Below are positions 1,002-30,483 of a stretch of 32,552 bases of DNA, piece after piece. The notes below the pieces were generated by a model. The model saw only the letters and a list, made by a program, of their open reading frames with translations, was not told where the DNA came from and made no database searches. The DNA is taken from assembly GCA_024641735.1 (NCBI GenBank), contig JAHECN010000014.1, forward strand, positions 1 to 32,552. Direction: 5' to 3'. A program made the translations under genes and the position numbers. This DNA comes from Gemmatimonadota bacterium. Its GTDB lineage: Bacteria > Gemmatimonadota > Gemmatimonadetes > Gemmatimonadales > GWC2-71-9. Position 1 is the stretch's first letter. Every line of letters begins with the position of its first letter.

Positions 1002-1068
1002 GAGTCGTTGGTCGTGAGTCGTTGGAGGATGCACTCTCACGACTCACGACTCGCTTCTCACGACTCGC
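1002..1068. repeat. Inverted heptamer-repeat element, family A
   Basis: The left arm (1002-1026) is built of degenerate 7-bp units GTCGTTG/GTCGTGA. The right arm (1034-1068) carries the complementary units ACGACTC and variants. An exact 12-bp stem forms between 1011-1022 and 1039-1050. The right arm runs into the AI-2E gene and supplies its stop codon and last codons. The 20-mer at 1031-1050 recurs identically at 28358-28377. Confidence 0.75.
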
Positions 1069-2115: not shown

Positions 2116-3372
2116 ATGAAACTCCGACACCCGCCGCCCCGTCATACCCCCATGCTCCGACACGCCGCCACCATCGGGATACGCTCCCTCGCCGGAAATC
2201 CCCTCCGGACCTTCCTCTCGACGCTTGGCGTGATCATCGGCACCGCTGCGTTGGTTGCCGTCATCGCCCTCGGGGACGGGGTCGAGAAATACGCGCGTGA
2301 GCAGATCGCCGCCCGCACGGACCTGCAGACCTTCTCGGTCAGCTCCGAAACGAGTCGGCGACTCGATGGGCTTCGGCTGCCTCGGGCGGACACCGTCCAC
2401 CTGAACGACTCCCTCGTCGCGGACCTCCAGCGGGAACTCGGGCCTGGCGTGACGGTGTCTCGGAGCCTGATGGGCGGGACCTTCGTGACAGGCCTACCGG
2501 GGGATTCTCTCCGCGGTGCGATGATCTCGGCAATGACCGGGCCCGCTGCCATCCCGCCTGACTCCGTACTGGTTGCTGGGCGCTTCCTGACCGAGGCAGA
2601 AGCATCGGGTGCCGAGGCGTTCGCTGTTGTGAGCGCCGACCTGGCAAAGCTGCTCGGCGACGCACCGACGGCGGTCGGAGCCACCATCCTGTTGGCCGGA
2701 ACCCCCTTCACCGTGATCGGCGTGGCGGGGACGGTGCACCCGGCGGGCGAGCAGCAGATGGGCGTGCAGGTACCCATCGGCGCCTACAATGTCGCCGTTC
2801 CCCCCCGTCTCCAGATGCCGCCAACGGTGACGGGAACGGCCATGTCGATCGAGGCCATGACAGCTGGCGTGGCGAAGGCACGCGCTTGGGCGGCTCGCGT
2901 TGGAGGGGACGGACTCACCGTCAGCAATCGCAGCGACATCTTGGTCGAAGTGGAGCGCGGGATGCTGATCGCCAAGTTGTTGATGGGCTCAATCACCGGC
3001 ATTTCGCTGTTGGTCGGCGGGATCGGGATCATGAATGTCCTGCTCGCCGCCGTCGTGGAGCGGACGCGCGAGATCGGCATTCGCCGAGCCACGGGTGCGC
3101 AGCGTCGCGACATTGTGGCCCAATTTCTGGCGGAGTCAATTGTGATCACCGGCGCAGGAAGCCTGATCGGATTGATTCTCGGGGTGGCCGGCGCCTTCGG
3201 GGTGGCGGCGATGATGGCGGCGCAGAGCGACGCGCCGGTGAAGGCCGCATTCACCCTCGGCCCGATCATCGTGGCCGCCTCGTCCGCCGTGATCATCGGA
3301 CTCGTCTTCGGGATCTACCCGGCACTCAAAGCGTCGCGGCTTTCCCCGATCGACGCGATGCGGACGGAATAG
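2116..3372 (+). CDS. MacB/FtsX-type ABC transporter permease without adjacent ATPase
   Basis: A 418-residue permease of the MacB type. It starts with a NPLRTFLSTLGVIIG helix, continues with a periplasmic core domain (residues ~50-275) and ends with the FtsX-like block of three helices. That block contains GGIGIMNVLLAAVVERTREIGIRRATGA, the coupling region for the ATPase. The four-helix design matches exporters of lipoproteins, peptides or macrolides. No ATP-binding protein flanks it directly; the nearest is the YbbA-like protein at 4119, which has its own partner. Other possible starts are GTG 2113 and ATG 2152; none has a clear ribosome-binding site. It converges on the esterase gene with a 4-bp gap. 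Confidence 0.85.
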   Translation: MKLRHPPPRHTPMLRHAATIGIRSLAGNPLRTFLSTLGVIIGTAALVAVIALGDGVEKYAREQIAARTDLQTFSVSSETSRRLDGLRLPRADTVHLNDSLVADLQRELGPGVTVSRSLMGGTFVTGLPGDSLRGAMISAMTGPAAIPPDSVLVAGRFLTEAEASGAEAFAVVSADLAKLLGDAPTAVGATILLAGTPFTVIGVAGTVHPAGEQQMGVQVPIGAYNVAVPPRLQMPPTVTGTAMSIEAMTAGVAKARAWAARVGGDGLTVSNRSDILVEVERGMLIAKLLMGSITGISLLVGGIGIMNVLLAAVVERTREIGIRRATGAQRRDIVAQFLAESIVITGAGSLIGLILGVAGAFGVAAMMAAQSDAPVKAAFTLGPIIVAASSAVIIGLVFGIYPALKASRLSPIDAMRTE

Positions 3373-4790: not shown

Positions 4791-7411
4791 CCTCTGCCGC
4801 CTTTGTCCTCCGGCTCGCCGCGCGTGAAGCCCGCGCGGCACGTCGACGGCTCCTGCTCCTCACCGCGTCCGTGACGGCCGGTGTGGCCGCACTGGTGGCG
4901 ATCAATTCCTTCACCGACAACCTCACTGTCTCGGTAGCGGAACAGGCGCAGGAACTCCTCGGCGCCGATCTTTCCTTCACCGGCCGGAAACCGATCGCGG
5001 AGATTCCGCTCGCAGCGAAATGGGTCGACTCGCTCGCGGCGCTCCCAGGCGCGAAGATCGCGCGGGCCGTCAACTTCGCGGCGATGGCATATCTCCCCTC
5101 GACAGGGAATGCGCGGCTCGTCCAGCTGCGGAGTGCCGATCAGGGCTGGCCGTTCTACGGTACCATCGAGACATCGCCCGCCGGTCTCTGGCAGACGCTG
5201 CAGCAAGGCGGCGCACTCGTTGATCCGTCCTTGCTCACCATCCTCGGTGCCAAGGTTGGCGATACCCTGTCGCTCGGTGAGGGACGTTTTCCGATTCTCG
5301 GCACCGTGGTGAACATCCCCGGCGACGTCGGACTGCAGATGGCGTTCGGTGCGCGGGTCTTCATCGCGAATTCTGCCCTGGAATCGACGGGCCTCCTCGG
5401 CTTCGGGGCACGCGTCGAGCATGAGGCGTTTCTCAAACTCCCCACGGCAACCGATCCGCAAGCGATCGCCAAGATTGCCCGCCCGGAACTTCGAGCGGAA
5501 CGCGTCCGCGTACGGACCGTCGCGGATGACCGCGACAATCTCACCAACGCCCTGACGCGGCTCGGTAACTACCTCGGCCTCGTGGCACTCGCCGCGCTGC
5601 TGCTCGGCGGACTCGGAGTCGCCAGCGCGGTGCATGTCTTCATTCGGCAGCGCCTCGACAGTATCGCCGTGCTCCGTTGTCTCGGCGCCACGTCCGGCCA
5701 GATTTTCGCGATCTACCTGCTGCAGGCGATCGGCATGGGGCTCCTGGGCTCGGCACTCGGCGCGCTCCTTGGTGTCGGACTGCAGCAGGCCATGCCACTC
5801 GTCCTCTCGGAGTTCATTCCCGTCAGCGTCCGCGTGCTCCCCTCTGCCAGTGCGATTGCAATCGGCATGGGACTCGGCATTTGGACTGCAGCGGTCTTCG
5901 CGCTGATGCCGCTCCTCGGGGTTCGTCAGATCTCGCCGCTCGCCACGCTGCGCCGGAATGTGAATCCGACCCGGACTCCGTGGGACGTGGCCCGAATCGC
6001 CGCCGCAACCGCCTTGGTGGTGAGCGTCGTGGGGCTCGCTGCCGTGCAGGTGGGCTCCCTCCGGCAGGGCGCGTGGTTCGCGGCCGCGATCGGCGTCGCA
6101 CTGCTCATCCTCTGGCTTGCGTCGCTGGCGTTGATGGCCGCGGCCAAGCGCTTCACGCCCAGTAGCTGGCCCTATCTGTGGCGTCAGGGACTCGCGAATT
6201 TGCACCGCCCGGCCAACCAGACGGTCACGGTGGTGCTCGCGCTGGGCTTCGGCGCGTTCCTCCTCACGACACTCTTCACGGCACAACACAATTTGTTGCG
6301 TGATTTGAAGCTCGACGGTGGCGGGGAGTCTGGCCGACCGAACCTGGTGATGTTCGACATCCAACCGGATCAACGCGCACTCGTCACGGAAACGCTCGCC
6401 GCTGAAGGCGTGGTCACGCCGGCGTTCGAACCGATCGTCCCGATGCGCATCACCATGGTGAAAGGCACCCCGGTCAAGGATCTGCTCGCGCGTGGCGGCG
6501 AGACACCCGCCGACAGCGGTGTCGACACCGCTGCTGCACCGGCCGAGCGCGGTCGGCGCGGCGGTGGTGGGCTGTGGGCGCTTCGACGGGAGTACCGTTC
6601 GACCTATCGCGCCGACCTGCGCGACGCAGAGAAGCTCACCAGCGGCAAGTGGTTCGATCCGGCAGAGACGGGGGATGGCACATCAGACAGCACGGCGGTC
6701 GCCATCTCGATGGAGGCCGATCTCGCGGACGAACTCGAGGTGAAAATTGGCGACCTGCTCGTCTGGGATATCCAGGGTGTCGAGGTCCATAGCGTCCTGC
6801 GTTCGCTCCGGCAGGTGAACTGGGCGCGCTTTGAGCCGAATTTCTTTGTCGTCTTCGCGCCGGGCGCCCTCGAACGTGCCCCCCACTCACTGGTCACGCT
6901 GGCCCGGGTCGGCGACACCCCGACGCGGGGTCGGATTCAGGGTCAGCTCGCCGCGCGCGCGGCCAATATCACCTCGGTCGATCTGGGCGACGTCCAACGG
7001 GCGTTGGAGTCGGTGGTGGATCGGATCATTCTGGCGATCCGCTTCATGGCGCTCTTTTCCCTCGCGACCGGCACCGTAGTGCTGGTCGGTGCCATCGCCA
7101 CTTCGCGGTGGCAGCGGGTCCGGGAGGGCACCCTGCTCCGGACGCTCGGCGCCACCCGGCGTCAGGTCCTGCATATTCTCAGTGTCGAGTACGCCGCCCT
7201 GGGCCTGGGGGCGGCGGTCGTGGCTGCCGCGCTGGCTGGGATTGCCGGGTGGGCCCTTGCGCGATTCGTATTTGAGGCTCGTTTTAGCCTGCCAATTCTT
7301 CCGATGCTTGCGTTGGCCGCCGGCCTGGTGACCCTCACCACGCTCGTCGGGCTGTGGAATTCCTTCGATGTGCTCGAGCGGCCACCGCTCGAAGTCTTGC
7401 GCGCTGAATAA
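4787..7411 (+). CDS. ybbP: Large FtsX-family ABC permease, YbbP type
   Basis: An 874-residue permease, in the size range of E. coli YbbP. It has an N-terminal helix (LLLLTASVTAGVAALVAINSF), a periplasmic domain, an FtsX helix block around residues 255-375, further central helices near 400-450, a second large periplasmic domain, and a second FtsX block at the C-terminus (LATGTVVLVGAIATSRWQR onward). Two FtsX modules in one chain let a single protein form the full permease with YbbA. A short Gly/Arg-rich stretch near residue 590 lies in the second periplasmic domain. The substrate is unknown; a link to lipid or lysophospholipid handling is suggested only by the adjacent TesA-like enzyme. Confidence 0.88.
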   Translation: MTSAAFVLRLAAREARAARRRLLLLTASVTAGVAALVAINSFTDNLTVSVAEQAQELLGADLSFTGRKPIAEIPLAAKWVDSLAALPGAKIARAVNFAAMAYLPSTGNARLVQLRSADQGWPFYGTIETSPAGLWQTLQQGGALVDPSLLTILGAKVGDTLSLGEGRFPILGTVVNIPGDVGLQMAFGARVFIANSALESTGLLGFGARVEHEAFLKLPTATDPQAIAKIARPELRAERVRVRTVADDRDNLTNALTRLGNYLGLVALAALLLGGLGVASAVHVFIRQRLDSIAVLRCLGATSGQIFAIYLLQAIGMGLLGSALGALLGVGLQQAMPLVLSEFIPVSVRVLPSASAIAIGMGLGIWTAAVFALMPLLGVRQISPLATLRRNVNPTRTPWDVARIAAATALVVSVVGLAAVQVGSLRQGAWFAAAIGVALLILWLASLALMAAAKRFTPSSWPYLWRQGLANLHRPANQTVTVVLALGFGAFLLTTLFTAQHNLLRDLKLDGGGESGRPNLVMFDIQPDQRALVTETLAAEGVVTPAFEPIVPMRITMVKGTPVKDLLARGGETPADSGVDTAAAPAERGRRGGGGLWALRREYRSTYRADLRDAEKLTSGKWFDPAETGDGTSDSTAVAISMEADLADELEVKIGDLLVWDIQGVEVHSVLRSLRQVNWARFEPNFFVVFAPGALERAPHSLVTLARVGDTPTRGRIQGQLAARAANITSVDLGDVQRALESVVDRIILAIRFMALFSLATGTVVLVGAIATSRWQRVREGTLLRTLGATRRQVLHILSVEYAALGLGAAVVAAALAGIAGWALARFVFEARFSLPILPMLALAAGLVTLTTLVGLWNSFDVLERPPLEVLRAE

Positions 7412-9942: not shown

Positions 9943-10088
9943 AGAGAACAGAGAACAGAGAACAGAGAACGGAGAACAGAGAGCGGGGGACAGGTGAGGG
10001 GTGAGGGGTACGGGGGCGAATCCCCCCAGAGCCTCCCCGGATCCCGGCCCCCGTTCGCTGTTCTCCGTTCTCTGCTCTCCGCTTTCCG
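9943..10088. repeat. Inverted heptamer-repeat element, family B
   Basis: The left arm (9943-9987) holds six units of GAGAACA or close variants in perfect 7-bp register. The right arm (about 10051-10088) holds the complementary TGTTCTC-type units. The spacer also has a 7-bp rhythm (GGGGTGA, GGGGTAC) and an inner GGGGG/CCCCC hairpin around 10010-10026. It fills most of the 220-bp gap between the metalloprotease and fabI genes. A related single arm is at 12143-12169. Confidence 0.75.
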
Positions 10089-10161
10089 TTTCCCCGCCAC
10101 CCCCCGTTCCGCCTCACCTCCCATTACTTTTCCCGCGAACCTTTCGGGAGTAGTGTGGACG

Positions 10162-11073
10162 ATGATACCGATTGATCTCTCGGGAAAACGGGCCTTTGTC
10201 GCGGGTGTCGCGGACGATGGCGGTTTCGGATTCGCAATCGCCAAGGCGCTCGCCGAGGCTGGCGCCTCGGTCTGTATCGGGACGTGGCCCCCTGCCCTGG
10301 GGATCTTCGAGACCCTGCTCGAGCGCGGCAAGATTGCCGAATCGCTCAAATTCCCCCGCGGTGGCTCGATGACCTTCGAGCGGGTCTACCCGCTCGATGC
10401 AGCCTATGACACCATGGCTGAGGTCCCCGCCGAGGTCCGCGAGAGCAAGCGCTATCGCGATCGGGGGGACTTCACCATCGCCGGGCTGGTCGCGTCCCTC
10501 CAGAAGGATTTCGGTGAGCGGCCGCTCGATATCGTGGTCCACTCGCTCGCGAATGGCCCGGAAGTGCGGAAGCCGCTGATCGAGACCTCGCGTCGTGGCT
10601 ACCTCGACGCGATTTCCATCTCCGCCTACAGCAACGTCGCGTTCGTCCGCGAGTTCACGCCGCTGATGCGTCCGGGTGGCTCCTTCCTCTCGCTCAGCTA
10701 TCTGGCCGGTCAGCGGGTTGTGCCGGGCTATGGCGGCGGGATGTCGACGGCGAAGGCCGCTTTGGAATCGGACACCCGGACCCTCGCCTTCGAAGCCGGG
10801 CGGCGGCACCAGTTGCGCGTCAACACGATCTCGGCGGGCCCCTACGCGTCACGCGCCGCCAGCGCAATCGGCTACATCCGCACCATGCTCCGGTACTACA
10901 AGGAAAACTCGGCGATGATCCGCCATCTTGATGCCGAGGATGTGGCGTACATGGCCGCCTTCCTCTCCTCGCCGATGGCGGCGGGGATCACCGGGAGCAC
11001 GGTCTACGTGGATAACGGCTACCACGCGATGGGAATGCCGCAGCTCACGCCTGACGCGGACGATCCGGGATGA
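10162..11073 (+). CDS. fabI: Enoyl-[acyl-carrier-protein] reductase, plant/chlamydial-type FabI
   Basis: A 303-residue NAD(P)-binding Rossmann enzyme that performs the last reduction of fatty-acid elongation in the cytoplasm. It carries the glycine-rich FVAGVADDGGFGFAIAKALAEAGA start, the active-site Tyr180, and the Tyr190-x7-Lys198 pair in PGYGGGMSTAK. The extra residue in that motif relative to E. coli FabI, the VYPLDAAYDTMAEVPAEV insertion before the cofactor pocket, and the VDNGYHAMGM ending match the chloroplast-type group. ATG 10162 has GGGAG 11 bases upstream. A TAGTGT box five bases upstream could instead make it leaderless. Its stop overlaps the DUF423 gene as ATGA. Confidence 0.93.
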   Translation: MIPIDLSGKRAFVAGVADDGGFGFAIAKALAEAGASVCIGTWPPALGIFETLLERGKIAESLKFPRGGSMTFERVYPLDAAYDTMAEVPAEVRESKRYRDRGDFTIAGLVASLQKDFGERPLDIVVHSLANGPEVRKPLIETSRRGYLDAISISAYSNVAFVREFTPLMRPGGSFLSLSYLAGQRVVPGYGGGMSTAKAALESDTRTLAFEAGRRHQLRVNTISAGPYASRAASAIGYIRTMLRYYKENSAMIRHLDAEDVAYMAAFLSSPMAAGITGSTVYVDNGYHAMGMPQLTPDADDPG

Positions 11074-12112: not shown

Positions 12113-12142
12113 AACGGCCGACCCCTCACAGGGTCGGCCGTT
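12113..12142. terminator. Bidirectional terminator hairpin between ykgJ-like gene and ctaF
   Basis: A perfect 12-bp stem (AACGGCCGACCC with its complement) closes on a 6-base loop at 12125-12130. On the minus strand it is followed by TGTTTTG, a good U-tract for ending the cta operon. On the plus strand it is followed by TTCTCT. Confidence 0.85.
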
Positions 12143-12169
12143 CTCTGTGCTCTGCTCTCCGTTCTCTGT
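12143..12169. repeat. Single-arm heptamer repeat, family B
   Basis: About four 7-bp units of the TTCTCTG type directly abut the terminator hairpin and run to the ctaF stop codon. CTCTGCTCTCCG is shared with the right arm of the element at 10051-10088. No opposite arm is present. Confidence 0.6.
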
Positions 12170-13171: not shown

Positions 13172-15025
13172 TCAGTGGTGGGTCGCGTTGGCATCAGGCG
13201 GCTCGTAAGCCCACTTGAAGATGCCAACGGTCGTCAGAAGGAAACCGGCGATGGTGATCGGCCCGAACGGGAACGCATACGTGTGCGGCACCATGAAGCC
13301 GATGAAGAAGATCAGAATGCCGATTGCCACAATCAGCGGCCACCAGGACGGGCCGGGGAGGTGAATCCCCTTGCCATCCGAAAGCGCCGGCTCGGGCAGC
13401 GTGCGCACACCAGCCGCGCGCTTCTGTGCCCAGAGGTCATCACGGTCGGTCACGATCGGCTCGTCCGTGAAGTTCCATTCCTGCGGCGGCGACGGAATCG
13501 ACCACTCGAGGGTCGCACCACCCCACGGATCGGCCGGCGCGGGCTCGCCGCGACGGGCAGAGACCCACATGTTGTACATGAAGACGAGAATGGAAATCGC
13601 CAGCAAGAATGCGCCGGCCGTCGCCATCATGTTGTACACCTCGAAGCCGAGACCCGCCGGGTACGCGTAGATCCGGCGCGGCATGCCAAGCAACCCGGCG
13701 AAGTGCATCGGGAAGAAGGTCAGGTTGAAGCCCGCGAGCATCAGCCAGAAGTGCACCTTGCCGATCGACTCGCTGAGCATCGTGCCGAACATCTTCGGCC
13801 ACCAATAGTATGCACCGGCCGTCAGGGCGAAGATCGACCCGCCGAACAACACGTAGTGGAAGTGCGCCACGACGAAGTAGGTGTCCGTCTGCTGCAAGTC
13901 CGCCGGTGCCACCGAGTGCATCACGCCCGACAAGCCGCCGATGATGAACATCGCGATGAAGCCGAGCGCGAAGAGCATCGGGGTCCGCAGCTGCAGCGAG
14001 CCACCCCAGGTCGTGCCGATCCAGTTGAAGATCTTCACGCCCGTCGGGACCGCGATCAACATCGTGGCCAGTGAGAAGAAGGTGTCCGCCAGCGGGCCCA
14101 TGCCCGTTGCGAACATGTGGTGCGACCAGACCCCGAAGCCGAGGAAGGCGATGAAGGCCATGGAGAAGACCATGGCGCTGTAGCCAAAGAGCGGCTTGCG
14201 GGAGAAGACCGGCAGGATCTCGGAGACGATACCGAAGGCCGGCAGGATCAGGATGTACACCTCGGGATGGCCGAAGAGCCAGAAGAGGTGCTGCCAGAGC
14301 AAGGGATCGCCACCGCCGCCCACGGAGAAGAACGACGCGCCGAACGTCCGGTCCACCATCAACATGATCAAGGCGACCGTGATGATCGGGAACGAGAGCA
14401 GCACCAGCACCTGAGTGATCAGCGTCGACCAGACGAACATCGGCATCCGCATCAGCGTCATGCCGCGGGCGCGCATGTTCAGGATCGTCGTGAAGAAGTT
14501 GACACCGGCCGCCAGCGAGGCGATGCCGAGGATCTGCAGGCCGATGACCCAGAAATCCATGTTCAACCCCGGCGAGTACTGCCGGGACGAGAGCGGGGCG
14601 TAGCCGAACCAGCCGCCATTCGGTGCCGCGTTCAGCAGGAACGAGGCATTCATGAACAGGCCACCCAGCAGGAAGACCCAGAGCGACATGGCATTGAGTC
14701 GCGGGAAGGCCACGTCCCGCGCACCAATCAGCAGCGGGATGAAGAAGTTGAAGAACATCGCGCTAAGCGGCATGACCCCGAGGAAGATCATCGTCGTGCC
14801 GTGCATCGTGAACAGCTGATTGTAGAACTCCGGGGAGACCAGCGTCCCGTTCGGTCCCATCAACTGGGTCCGGATGATCAGCGCTTCGATGCCGCCCAAC
14901 AGGAAGAAGATGAACGCCGACGCCCCGTACAGGATGCCGATCTTCTTGTGGTCAACCGTGGTCAGCCACTCTACCAGCGTGCTGCGCTTCGCCGGGTGTG
15001 CCTGATCGAGAGTTGTGGTTGTCAT
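13172..15025 (-). CDS. ctaD: Cytochrome c oxidase subunit I (A1-type haem-copper oxidase)
   Basis: A 617-residue subunit I with all metal ligands. His75 and His390 bind the low-spin haem, His253, His302 and His303 bind CuB, and His388 binds the high-spin haem; Tyr257 forms the His-Tyr cross-link. GHPEVY with Glu255 marks the A1 subfamily and its D proton channel, with Asp104 at the channel mouth. Lys331 marks the K channel. About 100 C-terminal residues form two extra helices (WWPLIVAIGILIFFIGFMV and PITIAGFLLTTVGIFKWAY), as in the ~620-residue CtaD of Bacillus. This subunit reduces oxygen and pumps protons. Confidence 0.97.
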   Translation of the reverse strand: MTTTTLDQAHPAKRSTLVEWLTTVDHKKIGILYGASAFIFFLLGGIEALIIRTQLMGPNGTLVSPEFYNQLFTMHGTTMIFLGVMPLSAMFFNFFIPLLIGARDVAFPRLNAMSLWVFLLGGLFMNASFLLNAAPNGGWFGYAPLSSRQYSPGLNMDFWVIGLQILGIASLAAGVNFFTTILNMRARGMTLMRMPMFVWSTLITQVLVLLSFPIITVALIMLMVDRTFGASFFSVGGGGDPLLWQHLFWLFGHPEVYILILPAFGIVSEILPVFSRKPLFGYSAMVFSMAFIAFLGFGVWSHHMFATGMGPLADTFFSLATMLIAVPTGVKIFNWIGTTWGGSLQLRTPMLFALGFIAMFIIGGLSGVMHSVAPADLQQTDTYFVVAHFHYVLFGGSIFALTAGAYYWWPKMFGTMLSESIGKVHFWLMLAGFNLTFFPMHFAGLLGMPRRIYAYPAGLGFEVYNMMATAGAFLLAISILVFMYNMWVSARRGEPAPADPWGGATLEWSIPSPPQEWNFTDEPIVTDRDDLWAQKRAAGVRTLPEPALSDGKGIHLPGPSWWPLIVAIGILIFFIGFMVPHTYAFPFGPITIAGFLLTTVGIFKWAYEPPDANATHH

Positions 15026-16253: not shown

Positions 16254-16922
16254 CTACCAACGCTCCAGCGGAAGGTCATATGGTGCCGGATCGGGCACCT
16301 CAAACGAGAAGTGCCACCACTCGTTCACATAGTTGGTGAACCCTTCCGCTTCCATGGCCGCCACGAGACGTCGCCGCCGCACCGCGACCTCACCTGTTGC
16401 CGACGCCGTATGCGACCGCTCGGTGAATTCGTCGAACGGGGTCCCCATATCGAGTTCCTCCCCGGTCGTGAGGGAAATCAGGGTCAGATCGACCGCCACC
16501 CCCTGATTGTGTCGCGAACGGCGTGCGATATACCCCGCATCCAGCAAATCGGTGCGTCCCACCCGCTCACACCACGCCACCATGGCCAAGGTGGCACGGA
16601 CGGGCCGATAGCCGTCCCACACCTTCAGCCCCAGCCCCTCGGAGCGAAGGCGGCGTTGGACGCGAGACAGGGCGCTCGCGGCCTCACGCCGCAGCAGGAC
16701 GGTCGGGCGACCGTACCCCGAGAGCGGTGCACCGGTAAAGTTATTGGCGGTCGCGTACCGAACCTCTTGGACAATGCTCGGCTCCACGACGGCGAGCTCC
16801 GCCAACTGGCGCCGAGCAACGGAATCGGGCGCCACGGCCTGCGCCGCGGCGTTGGGCTGCGTCGCGGGCGCGGACGGTGCCGCGCAGGCCAGCACCAGAA
16901 CGAGCATTGGGGTCATCCGCAT
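16254..16922 (-). CDS. D-alanyl-D-alanine dipeptidase (VanX/DdpX, peptidase M15D)
   Basis: A 222-residue enzyme with a short hydrophobic leader ending in LVLAC (Cys13), a possible but unusually short lipoprotein signal. It has VanX family features: Arg107 in DGYRP, the zinc motif SRHNQGVAVD with His138 and Asp145, and EWWHFSF with catalytic Glu201 and ligand His204. It would hydrolyse D-Ala-D-Ala, probably periplasmic, in peptidoglycan recycling. There are no vanH, vanA or regulator genes, so glycopeptide resistance is not implied. ATG 16922 has GGAGG four bases away; ATG 16916 is an equally reasonable start. It lies upstream of ctaC on the same strand with a ~107-bp gap. Confidence 0.9.
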   Translation of the reverse strand: MRMTPMLVLVLACAAPSAPATQPNAAAQAVAPDSVARRQLAELAVVEPSIVQEVRYATANNFTGAPLSGYGRPTVLLRREAASALSRVQRRLRSEGLGLKVWDGYRPVRATLAMVAWCERVGRTDLLDAGYIARRSRHNQGVAVDLTLISLTTGEELDMGTPFDEFTERSHTASATGEVAVRRRRLVAAMEAEGFTNYVNEWWHFSFEVPDPAPYDLPLERW

Positions 16923-28078: not shown

Positions 28079-28309
28079 ATGCCAACCCGAACACACCCCG
28101 AAAGTGAGGCCGCCATGCTCATTTCCTTCCCGCTCCTCGAGGCGGCCAAGGCTCCTCCCAGGCACGCCGTGACCCCCCTCAACACCAGCCCAACCAGCCA
28201 CCCGCCCGAGCCGAAGGTGGGTATCCAGTGCCCAGAATGCGCCGGGCCCGTCGCCCTCAGTGCCAGGTGCCGGACCTGCGTGGCGTGTGGGTGGAGTCGG
28301 TGTAGCTAG
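28079..28309 (+). CDS. Small zinc-ribbon protein resembling the C-terminus of B12-dependent ribonucleotide reductase
   Basis: A 76-residue protein; a later start at ATG 28115 (GAGG six bases before) would give 64 residues. The N-terminal half is Pro/His-rich and probably disordered. The last 26 residues carry six cysteines: CPEC, then CRTCVACGWSRC. This closely resembles the zinc ribbon that ends class II ribonucleotide reductase NrdJ, whose cysteines re-reduce the active site, but the catalytic part is absent. It is either a free-standing ribbon protein or a remnant. It lies alone between the ThiS-like gene and a heptamer element. Confidence 0.6.
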   Translation: MPTRTHPESEAAMLISFPLLEAAKAPPRHAVTPLNTSPTSHPPEPKVGIQCPECAGPVALSARCRTCVACGWSRCS

Positions 28310-28318
28310 GGGTTGAAG

Positions 28319-28393
28319 GAGTCGTGAGTCGCGAGTCATGAGAGGAAGGTGTTTCGAGCACTCTCACGACTCACGACCAACGACTATCGACTC
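28319..28393. repeat. Inverted heptamer-repeat element, family A
   Basis: The left arm (28319-28341) has units GTCGTGA, GTCGCGA and GTCATGA. The right arm (28361-28393) has units CTCACGA, CCAACGA and CTATCGA, all in a 7-bp register. An exact 11-bp stem forms between 28321-28331 and 28367-28377. The 20-mer at 28358-28377 is identical to 1031-1050. It sits between convergent genes and may end transcription on both sides. Confidence 0.75.
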
Positions 28394-28398
28394 CTACA

Positions 28399-30402
28399 TT
28401 ACCTCCGCGTACACATCCCATCCAACGCCGGCCGCACCGGGGTGTTTCCGACGGCCACCGCCGCGTCCCGAATGAAGTTGACGATACGCGAATAGTGCGG
28501 ATAGTCGATGTACTGCGGCTCATCCGTCACCTGGTGATAGTCACCATGCAGACCGGTGAAGAAGAAGACGATCGGAATGCACTTCTCCGCATACCGCGCA
28601 TGATCACTACGGCCATACAGGTTGTTGTACCCGGGCCACTTGGTCACGCCATCGATGACCGTGCCGAGCGTCGGGTCGTCAAACCGATCATCGAGGATCA
28701 GCTTGTTCGGGCTGGTCTTGTTGGTGTTGTAGACCAGATCACCGAACTCCTTCGAGAGACGGTACGCGCCGAGAATACCGGTGTAGGTATCGCCACCGCC
28801 GATCACGTCTTCTGCACGCCCGCGTCCGATCATGTCGATGTTGATGTGCGCAGCGATCGAGTCCACCGGTACCGTCGGATTGGACGAGAACGCACGCGAG
28901 CCATACATGCCAGCCTCTTCCGCAGCGTGCCACACAAAGACCATGGAGCGCTTCGGCTTCACCGGCATCGCCTTGATCGCTTCGGCAATTTCCAACAGGC
29001 CCATCGAACCAGAGCCATCGTCGTCTGCGCCATTGCTGATCGAATCGATGCGCGCCGGACGAATTGCTCGGAGTGAATCCATGTTGATTGGCGCCATGGA
29101 GGCTGCCTGATCCGGCGAGAGCGGCAGCAGGTCGCCGGTGGACATCTGCGCCCGCAAACGCTGCTGTGATGCGGCACGCAAGGAGTCGTGGTCGACGCCG
29201 CCCTGACGATAGCCGACGTGGTCATTGTGTGCGCCAATCACGATGTACTGCCCGCGCAACTTCGGATCGGAGCCAGGGATGATGCCGACGACATTCCGCC
29301 CATAGTCGGTCCACTGCTCCACGAAGTCGAGCTTGGCCGAGACCGTGCCTCCCGTCGTCCCCAACGGCATCCCGGCGAGGATCTTTCCGCCGAAGAGCCG
29401 CTCTGCCGTCGCGACCGTCACACGGATCGCGGCCGCTGGCGCACCAGTCTCAGTCGCACCGGCACCCGGGGCACCGCCCCGTCCACCACCGGCACGTCCG
29501 CCGCCCGCGGCACCACGGCCGCCTGCCGCACCACGACCCGCCCGAGCGATCGAATCGGCCGTCGCGACCGAGTCATTCCAGGCACGGATCGTTGCCGGCG
29601 TCATACCAGCTGGCAGCTTCCCACCAATCACCGCGTTATCCCGCACGACTCCGATCACACCCTTCTGGTTGACGATCACGTCACCTGGGGTCACGGTGGT
29701 CTTCGCATCGGCAGCGGAGTAGACGGCGGCAGGTTCATTGATCGCCATGCGAGCAGCCATCGTGAGCGGATCGAGGTCGGCCGTCAGCACCGCGACCGCG
29801 CCGTCAAAACGTCCAGCGGCCGCTCCTCCACCGAAGCCTCCGCGTCCGCCACCACCACGGCCACCGAGCGCGGTTGCCGCCTGCGGACGTGCCGCCGAGA
29901 GCACGACCACCTTGCCGTTCGCCTGGGCAGCGCTGATCTGCTGCGTGGTGTCTCCTGCGATGCCGCCATAGATCACCGCCGCATTGGCAATGGTCTTCGG
30001 GGCTGCGGCGCCGGGGACCGGCTCAAAGTCGTAATGGAGGCGCAGTGCCGTGGCACCCGCCATCATCGTCGACTGTTCACTGTACTTGCGCTGCTTGTAT
30101 GGCAGCACTTGGAAGTACGTCCCGTTCTCGCCACCAGCCTGAATGCCGAGCTTCTTCAGTTCGTTCGCGATGTAGTTGGTCCCCTGCATGTTGCCTGGGC
30201 GACCGACCTGGCGACCCATCATCGAGTCGTCCGCGAAGATGTAGAGTCGGGTCATCAAGTCTGCCGGCGTAATCGCGGCAACGGTTGGCTGCGGAGTGTG
30301 CTTTTCCGGATAGCCGTACTGATTGACCTTTGCCTGCGCCGTGAGCGCGGCAGGAATGAGCAGCAGCGCAAGCGTCTGCGCCGACCGACGTGCAATGGAC
30401 AC
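28399..30402 (-). CDS. Secreted M28 family zinc peptidase with Gly/Arg-rich inserts
   Basis: A 667-residue enzyme starting at GTG 30402, where GGAG lies seven bases upstream and a signal peptide begins (ARRSAQTLALLLIPAALTAQ); the frame extends upstream to 30432. The two-zinc M28 ligands are visible: IGAHNDHVGY, NGADDDGSGS, the Glu-Glu pair of AAEEAGMYGS, NIDMIGRG and GLHGDYHQVTDE. A PA-like insert domain occupies about residues 120-370. It contains two Gly/Arg/Ala-rich low-complexity stretches, near 29840-29875 and 29455-29555. It is likely an aminopeptidase of the periplasm or exterior. Confidence 0.92.
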   Translation of the reverse strand: MSIARRSAQTLALLLIPAALTAQAKVNQYGYPEKHTPQPTVAAITPADLMTRLYIFADDSMMGRQVGRPGNMQGTNYIANELKKLGIQAGGENGTYFQVLPYKQRKYSEQSTMMAGATALRLHYDFEPVPGAAAPKTIANAAVIYGGIAGDTTQQISAAQANGKVVVLSAARPQAATALGGRGGGGRGGFGGGAAAGRFDGAVAVLTADLDPLTMAARMAINEPAAVYSAADAKTTVTPGDVIVNQKGVIGVVRDNAVIGGKLPAGMTPATIRAWNDSVATADSIARAGRGAAGGRGAAGGGRAGGGRGGAPGAGATETGAPAAAIRVTVATAERLFGGKILAGMPLGTTGGTVSAKLDFVEQWTDYGRNVVGIIPGSDPKLRGQYIVIGAHNDHVGYRQGGVDHDSLRAASQQRLRAQMSTGDLLPLSPDQAASMAPINMDSLRAIRPARIDSISNGADDDGSGSMGLLEIAEAIKAMPVKPKRSMVFVWHAAEEAGMYGSRAFSSNPTVPVDSIAAHINIDMIGRGRAEDVIGGGDTYTGILGAYRLSKEFGDLVYNTNKTSPNKLILDDRFDDPTLGTVIDGVTKWPGYNNLYGRSDHARYAEKCIPIVFFFTGLHGDYHQVTDEPQYIDYPHYSRIVNFIRDAAVAVGNTPVRPALDGMCTRR

Positions 30403-30483
30403 GCGAAAACTCCGGTGAGAATGGGGAATCACCTGCAGGGGGACTAAAAAGTGGTACGGGCAGGCGATCCCGCGGGTTGACGG

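Follow-up and report, generated by a model that had tools for sequence, protein, structure and literature searches.

Tandem heptamers in intergenic DNA, the kind of repeat described here, are known from filamentous cyanobacteria as STRR heptanucleotide repeats, which to our knowledge have not been characterised as gene-end palindromes. Rehm et al. 2015 (PMC4692102) described G-rich heptamers (GGGAATC and GGGGA(C/T)T) from Xanthomonas and Nostoc and read them as G-quadruplexes; their study also mentions Calothrix heptanucleotides and cites a report of 2007 on an excess of heptamers in bacteria, for which polymerase slippage had been suggested. The GGGAATC repeats of Xanthomonas lie at gene ends, form inverted pairs and avoid divergent junctions (PMC4692102). 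This is the inverted form that the initial annotation of the DNA examined here had been unable to name. In marine Beggiatoaceae, TAACTGA direct repeats make up about 170 sets of heptamer arrays per genome (PMC4679880). They are intergenic like the arrays reported here, but lie mostly just upstream of start codons, are direct (with one indirect case) and use a single conserved word.

A targeted literature search found no paper on intergenic repeats of Gemmatimonadota. The arrays that we describe from this phylum resemble the little-studied Xanthomonas/Nostoc class in that they are dispersed, mostly intergenic 7-nt tandem units, with the purine-rich strand in sense orientation close past a stop codon and with inverted pairs in convergent orientation. 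Unlike that class, in which each lineage has one type of G-tract heptamer, they draw on several heptamers within one genome, most of them free of G-tracts, and their words differ between species at one and the same junction. Judged by these words, the arrays are a variant of the class rather than a G-quadruplex-type member, because the main heptamers lack GGG. REP/BIME elements with RAYT share the gene-end position, hairpins, species-specific sequence and dispersal; however, each of their arms is one short stem, whereas the arms here consist of tandem heptads without RAYT linkage. The hairpins of bidirectional intrinsic terminators, which also lie between gene ends, likewise begin with purines and finish with pyrimidines; in contrast to these, the arrays have no consistent T-run and coexist with canonical terminators rather than replacing them.

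Heptamer palindromes in the window and the source genome

The window, that is, the whole stretch of 32,552 nt that was analyzed, is part of a Gemmatimonadota draft genome of 245 contigs (the source genome) and carries the following features.

960–992, + strand: ordinary GC-rich terminator hairpin with a T-rich tail behind OmpA, apart from the heptads
1001–1026, + strand: purine (5′) arm of site 1, GCGAGTCGTTGGTCGTGAGTCGTTGG, degenerate GTCGTGA heptads
1031–1069, + strand: pyrimidine (3′) arm of site 1, CTCACGA heptads, the first 20 nt being the 20-mer common to site 2
1058–1060, − strand: stop codon (TGA) of the AI-2E transporter gene, belonging to a GTCGTGA unit
9943–10009, + strand: purine arm of a third element, AGAGAAC then GGTGAGG heptads, directly past the stop of a met-zincin gene
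10047–10094, + strand: pyrimidine arm of the third element, GTTCTCT/CCGTTCT heptads, upstream of the enoyl-ACP reductase gene
12138–12167, + strand: pyrimidine-only heptads (CCGTTCT type) that themselves form the tail following an ordinary terminator hairpin, with convergent genes on either side
28319–28344, + strand: purine arm of site 2, GAGTCGTGAGTCGCGAGTCATGAGAG, beginning 10 nt past the stop of the ORF at 28115–28309
28358–28393, + strand: pyrimidine arm of site 2, ending about 6 nt ahead of the M28 peptidase stop codon

Sites 1 (1001–1069) and 2 (28319–28393) had been singled out in the initial annotation as two inverted heptamer runs with a 20-mer in common, one of them supplying the stop codon of a gene, and all of this held. 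Both are of the GTCGTGA type, pairing of GTCGTGAGTCG with CGACTCACGAC forms an exact 11-bp stem in each, and the 20-mer GCACTCTCACGACTCACGAC (family D11) is identical at 1031–1050 and 28358–28377. The flanking genes converge at both sites, namely OmpA (28–930, +) and the AI-2E transporter (1058–2059, −) at site 1, and a small zinc-ribbon-like ORF (28115–28309, +) and the M28 peptidase (28399–30432, −) at site 2. The RNA folds of the two sites were more stable than 200 of 200 dinucleotide shuffles on each strand (z of −4.4 to −6.3), and z-scores of the window elements overall ranged from −4.4 to −8.1. Beyond these two sites, the window holds further members, the AGAGAAC palindrome at 9943–10094 and the pyrimidine-only array at 12138–12167. 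An Rfam scan of the window gave no covariance-model match at the gathering score. The ORF ahead of site 2 encodes 64 amino acids with CxxC-type cysteine pairs (CPEC, CRTC, CVAC) and is easily overlooked by gene callers; the simple custom caller used throughout this study missed at least this one. All named relatives of the M28 peptidase among the matches listed are Gemmatimonadota.

The initial annotation had made its claim depend on the 20-mer having relatives elsewhere in the genome. A whole-genome search located the 18-mer core at 76 places with at most 2 mismatches, compared to none for a reversed-pattern control; the outcome that would have refuted the claim, a 20-mer confined to the two sites, was not observed. 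The statistics come from 396 kb of the source genome, sampled in stretches from contigs of more than 20 kb. In this sample, a gapless self-match scan yielded 72 period-7 arrays scoring at least 12, compared to 0 to 5 for periods 4–6 and 8–13, and besides period 7 only its multiples 14 and 21 were raised. The sampled contigs were mostly picked for a family-A (GTCGTGA-type) match, which leaves the period comparison unaffected but may have made the array density somewhat high. For this reason, the roughly 370 clusters per genome obtained by extrapolation from the 53 counted in the sample are probably an overestimate. At least six different heptamers are in use; the units include GTCGTGA, GGAGAAC/AGAGAAC, AGGGAAC, GGTGAGG, GGATGAT, GGAGAGA, and GTCGTAG.

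In 29 paired family-A elements, the arms share a consensus, with the apex CTCTCACGACTCACGAC..., and the variant CCAACGAC is usually confined to one arm. Arm co-variation was absent, as pairing was no better within an element than between elements (16.9 versus 18.7), which indicates that family-A arms are drawn from a shared pool and not copied across each hairpin. The loops of these 29 elements have no common sequence apart from one heptad-like 11-mer; some loops hold an ordinary terminator or other palindromes. Within the loops of several heptad elements (L073 at about 1748–1771, L074 at about 6660–6680, and L013) lies a second dispersed palindrome, GGGGCGAGGCATGCCTCGCCCC, whose TACGAC flanks resemble the GTCGTAG heptad.

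Arm order and position at stop codons

The order of the arms is nearly invariant. Where neighbouring arrays differ in polarity, the purine arm comes first in 33 of 33 cases in the source genome and in 26 of 27 in its relatives (binomial p = 1e-16), i.e. in 59 of the 60 pairs holding both arm types, with loops of 3–117 nt. Position relative to stop codons, which the initial annotation had proposed to plot, is similarly constrained: 41 of 48 source-genome clusters (85%) lie at a correctly oriented stop codon, compared to 18% of length-matched intergenic intervals (p = 4e-24). The corresponding counts are 11/11 in G009, 10/13 in G004, 6/7 in G037, and 8/9 in G002 and G007 together; the 1/3 found in G001 is too small a sample to judge. 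Seven of the 48 clusters are away from any called stop, and for 3 of 53 the called genes on either side diverge.

Convergence of the flanking genes, inferred earlier from sites 1 and 2, is correct for these two but is not the rule, since most arrays lie between tandem genes directly past the upstream stop. In tandem gene pairs, 30 of 35 clusters are nearer to the upstream stop than to the next start, and 26 of 35 are within 25 nt of that stop; when placed at random, 15 on average and at most 23 fell within this distance (20,000 draws). The 7-bp period was rightly taken as non-coding; to call it incompatible with ordinary terminators was too strong, as some arrays bracket an ordinary terminator hairpin. 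A genome-wide, dispersed class of inverted heptad palindromes with a 7-bp grammar at gene 3′ ends can be considered real with near certainty.

Heptamer words in related genomes

The nearest relatives compared have about 60–65% protein identity. The period-7 excess is also present in G009, G004, and G001, and is weaker in G037, while essentially no period-7 arrays scoring at least 12 were found in G006, G043, G039, G041, and G010. The words differ even within the genus (GAGAGAC in G001, GAGACTA and GGATGAT in G004, GAGACGT and GAGAGGT in G009), and G037 of the same order uses AAGGATG/AAGGACG. Family A has matches in 18 of 200 genomes, with many copies only in the source genome, G037 and, as a variant, G009. 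In the same survey, the reversed control pattern, which corresponds to GAGTGCT heptads, had 110 matches in G164, a genome that seems to use yet another high-copy heptamer.

Orthologous intergenic regions were compared as had been suggested. At the AI-2E/OmpA junction, GAGAGAC heptads surround a terminator hairpin in G001, GGGTGAT is found in G002 and ACATCCA in G007, and there are no heptads in G003, G004, G005, and G009. Inspection by eye of the region ahead of the enoyl-ACP reductase gene revealed differing heptad-rich palindromes in the source genome, G001, and G009 and no heptad palindrome in G004 and G006. In G004, a GGGGAAG heptad palindrome of about 178 bp exactly fills the gap that separates the stops of two convergent genes; at the same junction, the stops are 4 bp apart in the source genome, and in G003 and G007 they overlap or are about as near to each other. 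As the sequences stand, this case would most simply be a gain without loss of coding sequence.

Inverted heptad pairs were also seen in more distant Gemmatimonadota (L150 at 1409–1515, L098 at 3125–3247, and L119 at 564–654) with the words CTAGTGC, GTGAGCG, and AGGGAAG, which suggests that the architecture may span the phylum. Long near-perfect palindromes of the GTCATCC(C/T)GAGCG..AGCGA type were observed in relatives, nested within heptad arms (L167 at about 16690–16765, L227 at about 16260–16340, and L236 at about 10140–10250).

A candidate 3′-end hairpin and its alternatives

On our preferred reading, the class consists of fast-turnover, satellite-like 3′-end palindromes, which probably form bidirectional hairpins at mRNA 3′ ends. 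The arrays would spread and renew themselves like satellites, by slippage in 7-bp steps and by arms being copied from one locus to another. Transcription of either flanking gene would read a purine arm before a pyrimidine arm, so that a long RNA hairpin would form directly past the stop codon from both sides. Such a hairpin could serve as a sequence-independent, bidirectional 3′-end element that blocks 3′-exonucleases as well as run-on transcription into the neighbour, a role that REP palindromes and bidirectional terminators play in other systems. The arrays agree with such a hairpin in their position, polarity and folding. Against it, three comparisons gave no sign of RNA-level selection, namely G-U versus A-C mismatches, arm co-variation within family A, and substitution for canonical terminators; the few clusters away from a called stop or between divergent genes do not fit it either. 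We tentatively put the probability that the arrays are such a functional element at about 0.45.

A distinct possibility is that the arrays are neutral satellite-like DNA, which arises by slippage and ectopic copying, survives where insertion is least harmful (between a stop and the next gene) and has no function for the host. Their patchy occurrence in same-genus genomes, with no arrays in G006 (220 kb examined) and the G005 stretch, the differing words at the AI-2E/OmpA junction, and the abundance of family A in the source genome and the distant G037, together with its near absence from most close relatives, are in line with such an origin. So are the results at the RNA level, where neither a pairing bias nor arm co-variation was detected: a preference for G-U on the sense strand was not apparent in tandem elements (33 G-U versus 30 A-C mismatches, p = 0.40). 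However, tolerance alone predicts neither the 59:1 purine-first order nor the tight abutment on stop codons in long intergenic gaps.

It is unlikely that the arrays are expanded terminators, that is, bidirectional intrinsic terminators whose A-rich and T-rich flanks were lengthened by 7-bp steps into heptad feet. Purine-first polarity is common to both, and arrays bracket an ordinary terminator stem at the G001 AI-2E/OmpA junction and at two source-genome loci (L068 at 5177–5274 and L077 at 14806–14915). Yet a strong hairpin is present in a minority of the loops (17 of 48 tested with z < −2), and where G004 has its stop-to-stop palindrome, the intergenic space of the relatives is too small to hold a terminator. 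Moreover, ordinary terminators are not enriched at arrays: a GC stem with a T-run directly after it, the hallmark of an intrinsic terminator, occurs in the source genome at 8 of 49 array-bearing ends (16%) compared to 22% of other ends, so the arrays neither replace nor need canonical terminators. The repeats may be terminators themselves, as suggested earlier, although canonical terminators are about as frequent at array-free ends.

We likewise assign a low probability to the idea that Gemmatimonadota species keep private heptamer words written by a common machinery, which would add 7-bp units to the 3′ ends of genes with the purine strand as the sense strand. If true, this would amount to a bacterial satellite or templated-addition system that conserves position and period but leaves the sequence free.

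It is very improbable that the arrays are mobile elements of the REP/RAYT or MITE type, in which the heptad arms would be the terminal inverted repeats on which a transposase acts. The copies are dispersed with inverted ends, and a Y1 transposase gene is present in the source genome, G001, G004, G005, and G007, but G009 and G037 bear arrays and have no Y1 transposase match. In a Y1 transposase search of 61 genomes, the three transposase loci inspected were all without heptads, so that the repeats do not flank the gene at these loci. Miniature elements in the MITE sense, which the initial annotation had considered, are not supported, in view of the 29 family-A elements, whose inverted ends enclose no shared body and whose loops are unrelated beyond heptad-like words, and of the lack of heptads next to the only Y1 transposase gene of the source genome. 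That RAYT-like gene (L276, G000:C209) has short flanking palindromes at about 1030–1160 and 1560–1640, GTCGCTAAAGCGAC and GTCGCTTCAGCGAC, which are unrelated to the heptads and look like its own REP sequences. Least probable of all is that the repeats form G-quadruplexes or bind a protein, which is what has been proposed for the Xanthomonas GGGAATC heptamers: repeat length, gene-end position, and inverted pairing agree with PMC4692102, but the main heptamers (GTCGTGA, GAGAGAC, GAGACTA, GAGACGT, and GGAGAAC) have no runs of three G, and no motif is common across species.

An excess of heptamers in bacteria has been known since 2007 without an established explanation, and its best-studied case has been read as G-quadruplexes. 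The Gemmatimonadota arrays match the Xanthomonas class except for the G-tracts; if both are one class, the G-quadruplex cannot be its general principle. Related species differ in heptamer sequence but agree in period, purine-first polarity, inverted pairing, and position at the stop codon, so that the general features (7 bp, gene end, palindrome) can be told apart from the incidental ones (sequence, G-tracts). With array-rich and array-free relatives in one phylum, it becomes possible to test how the 7-bp step arose and whether the arrays have a function at 3′ ends.
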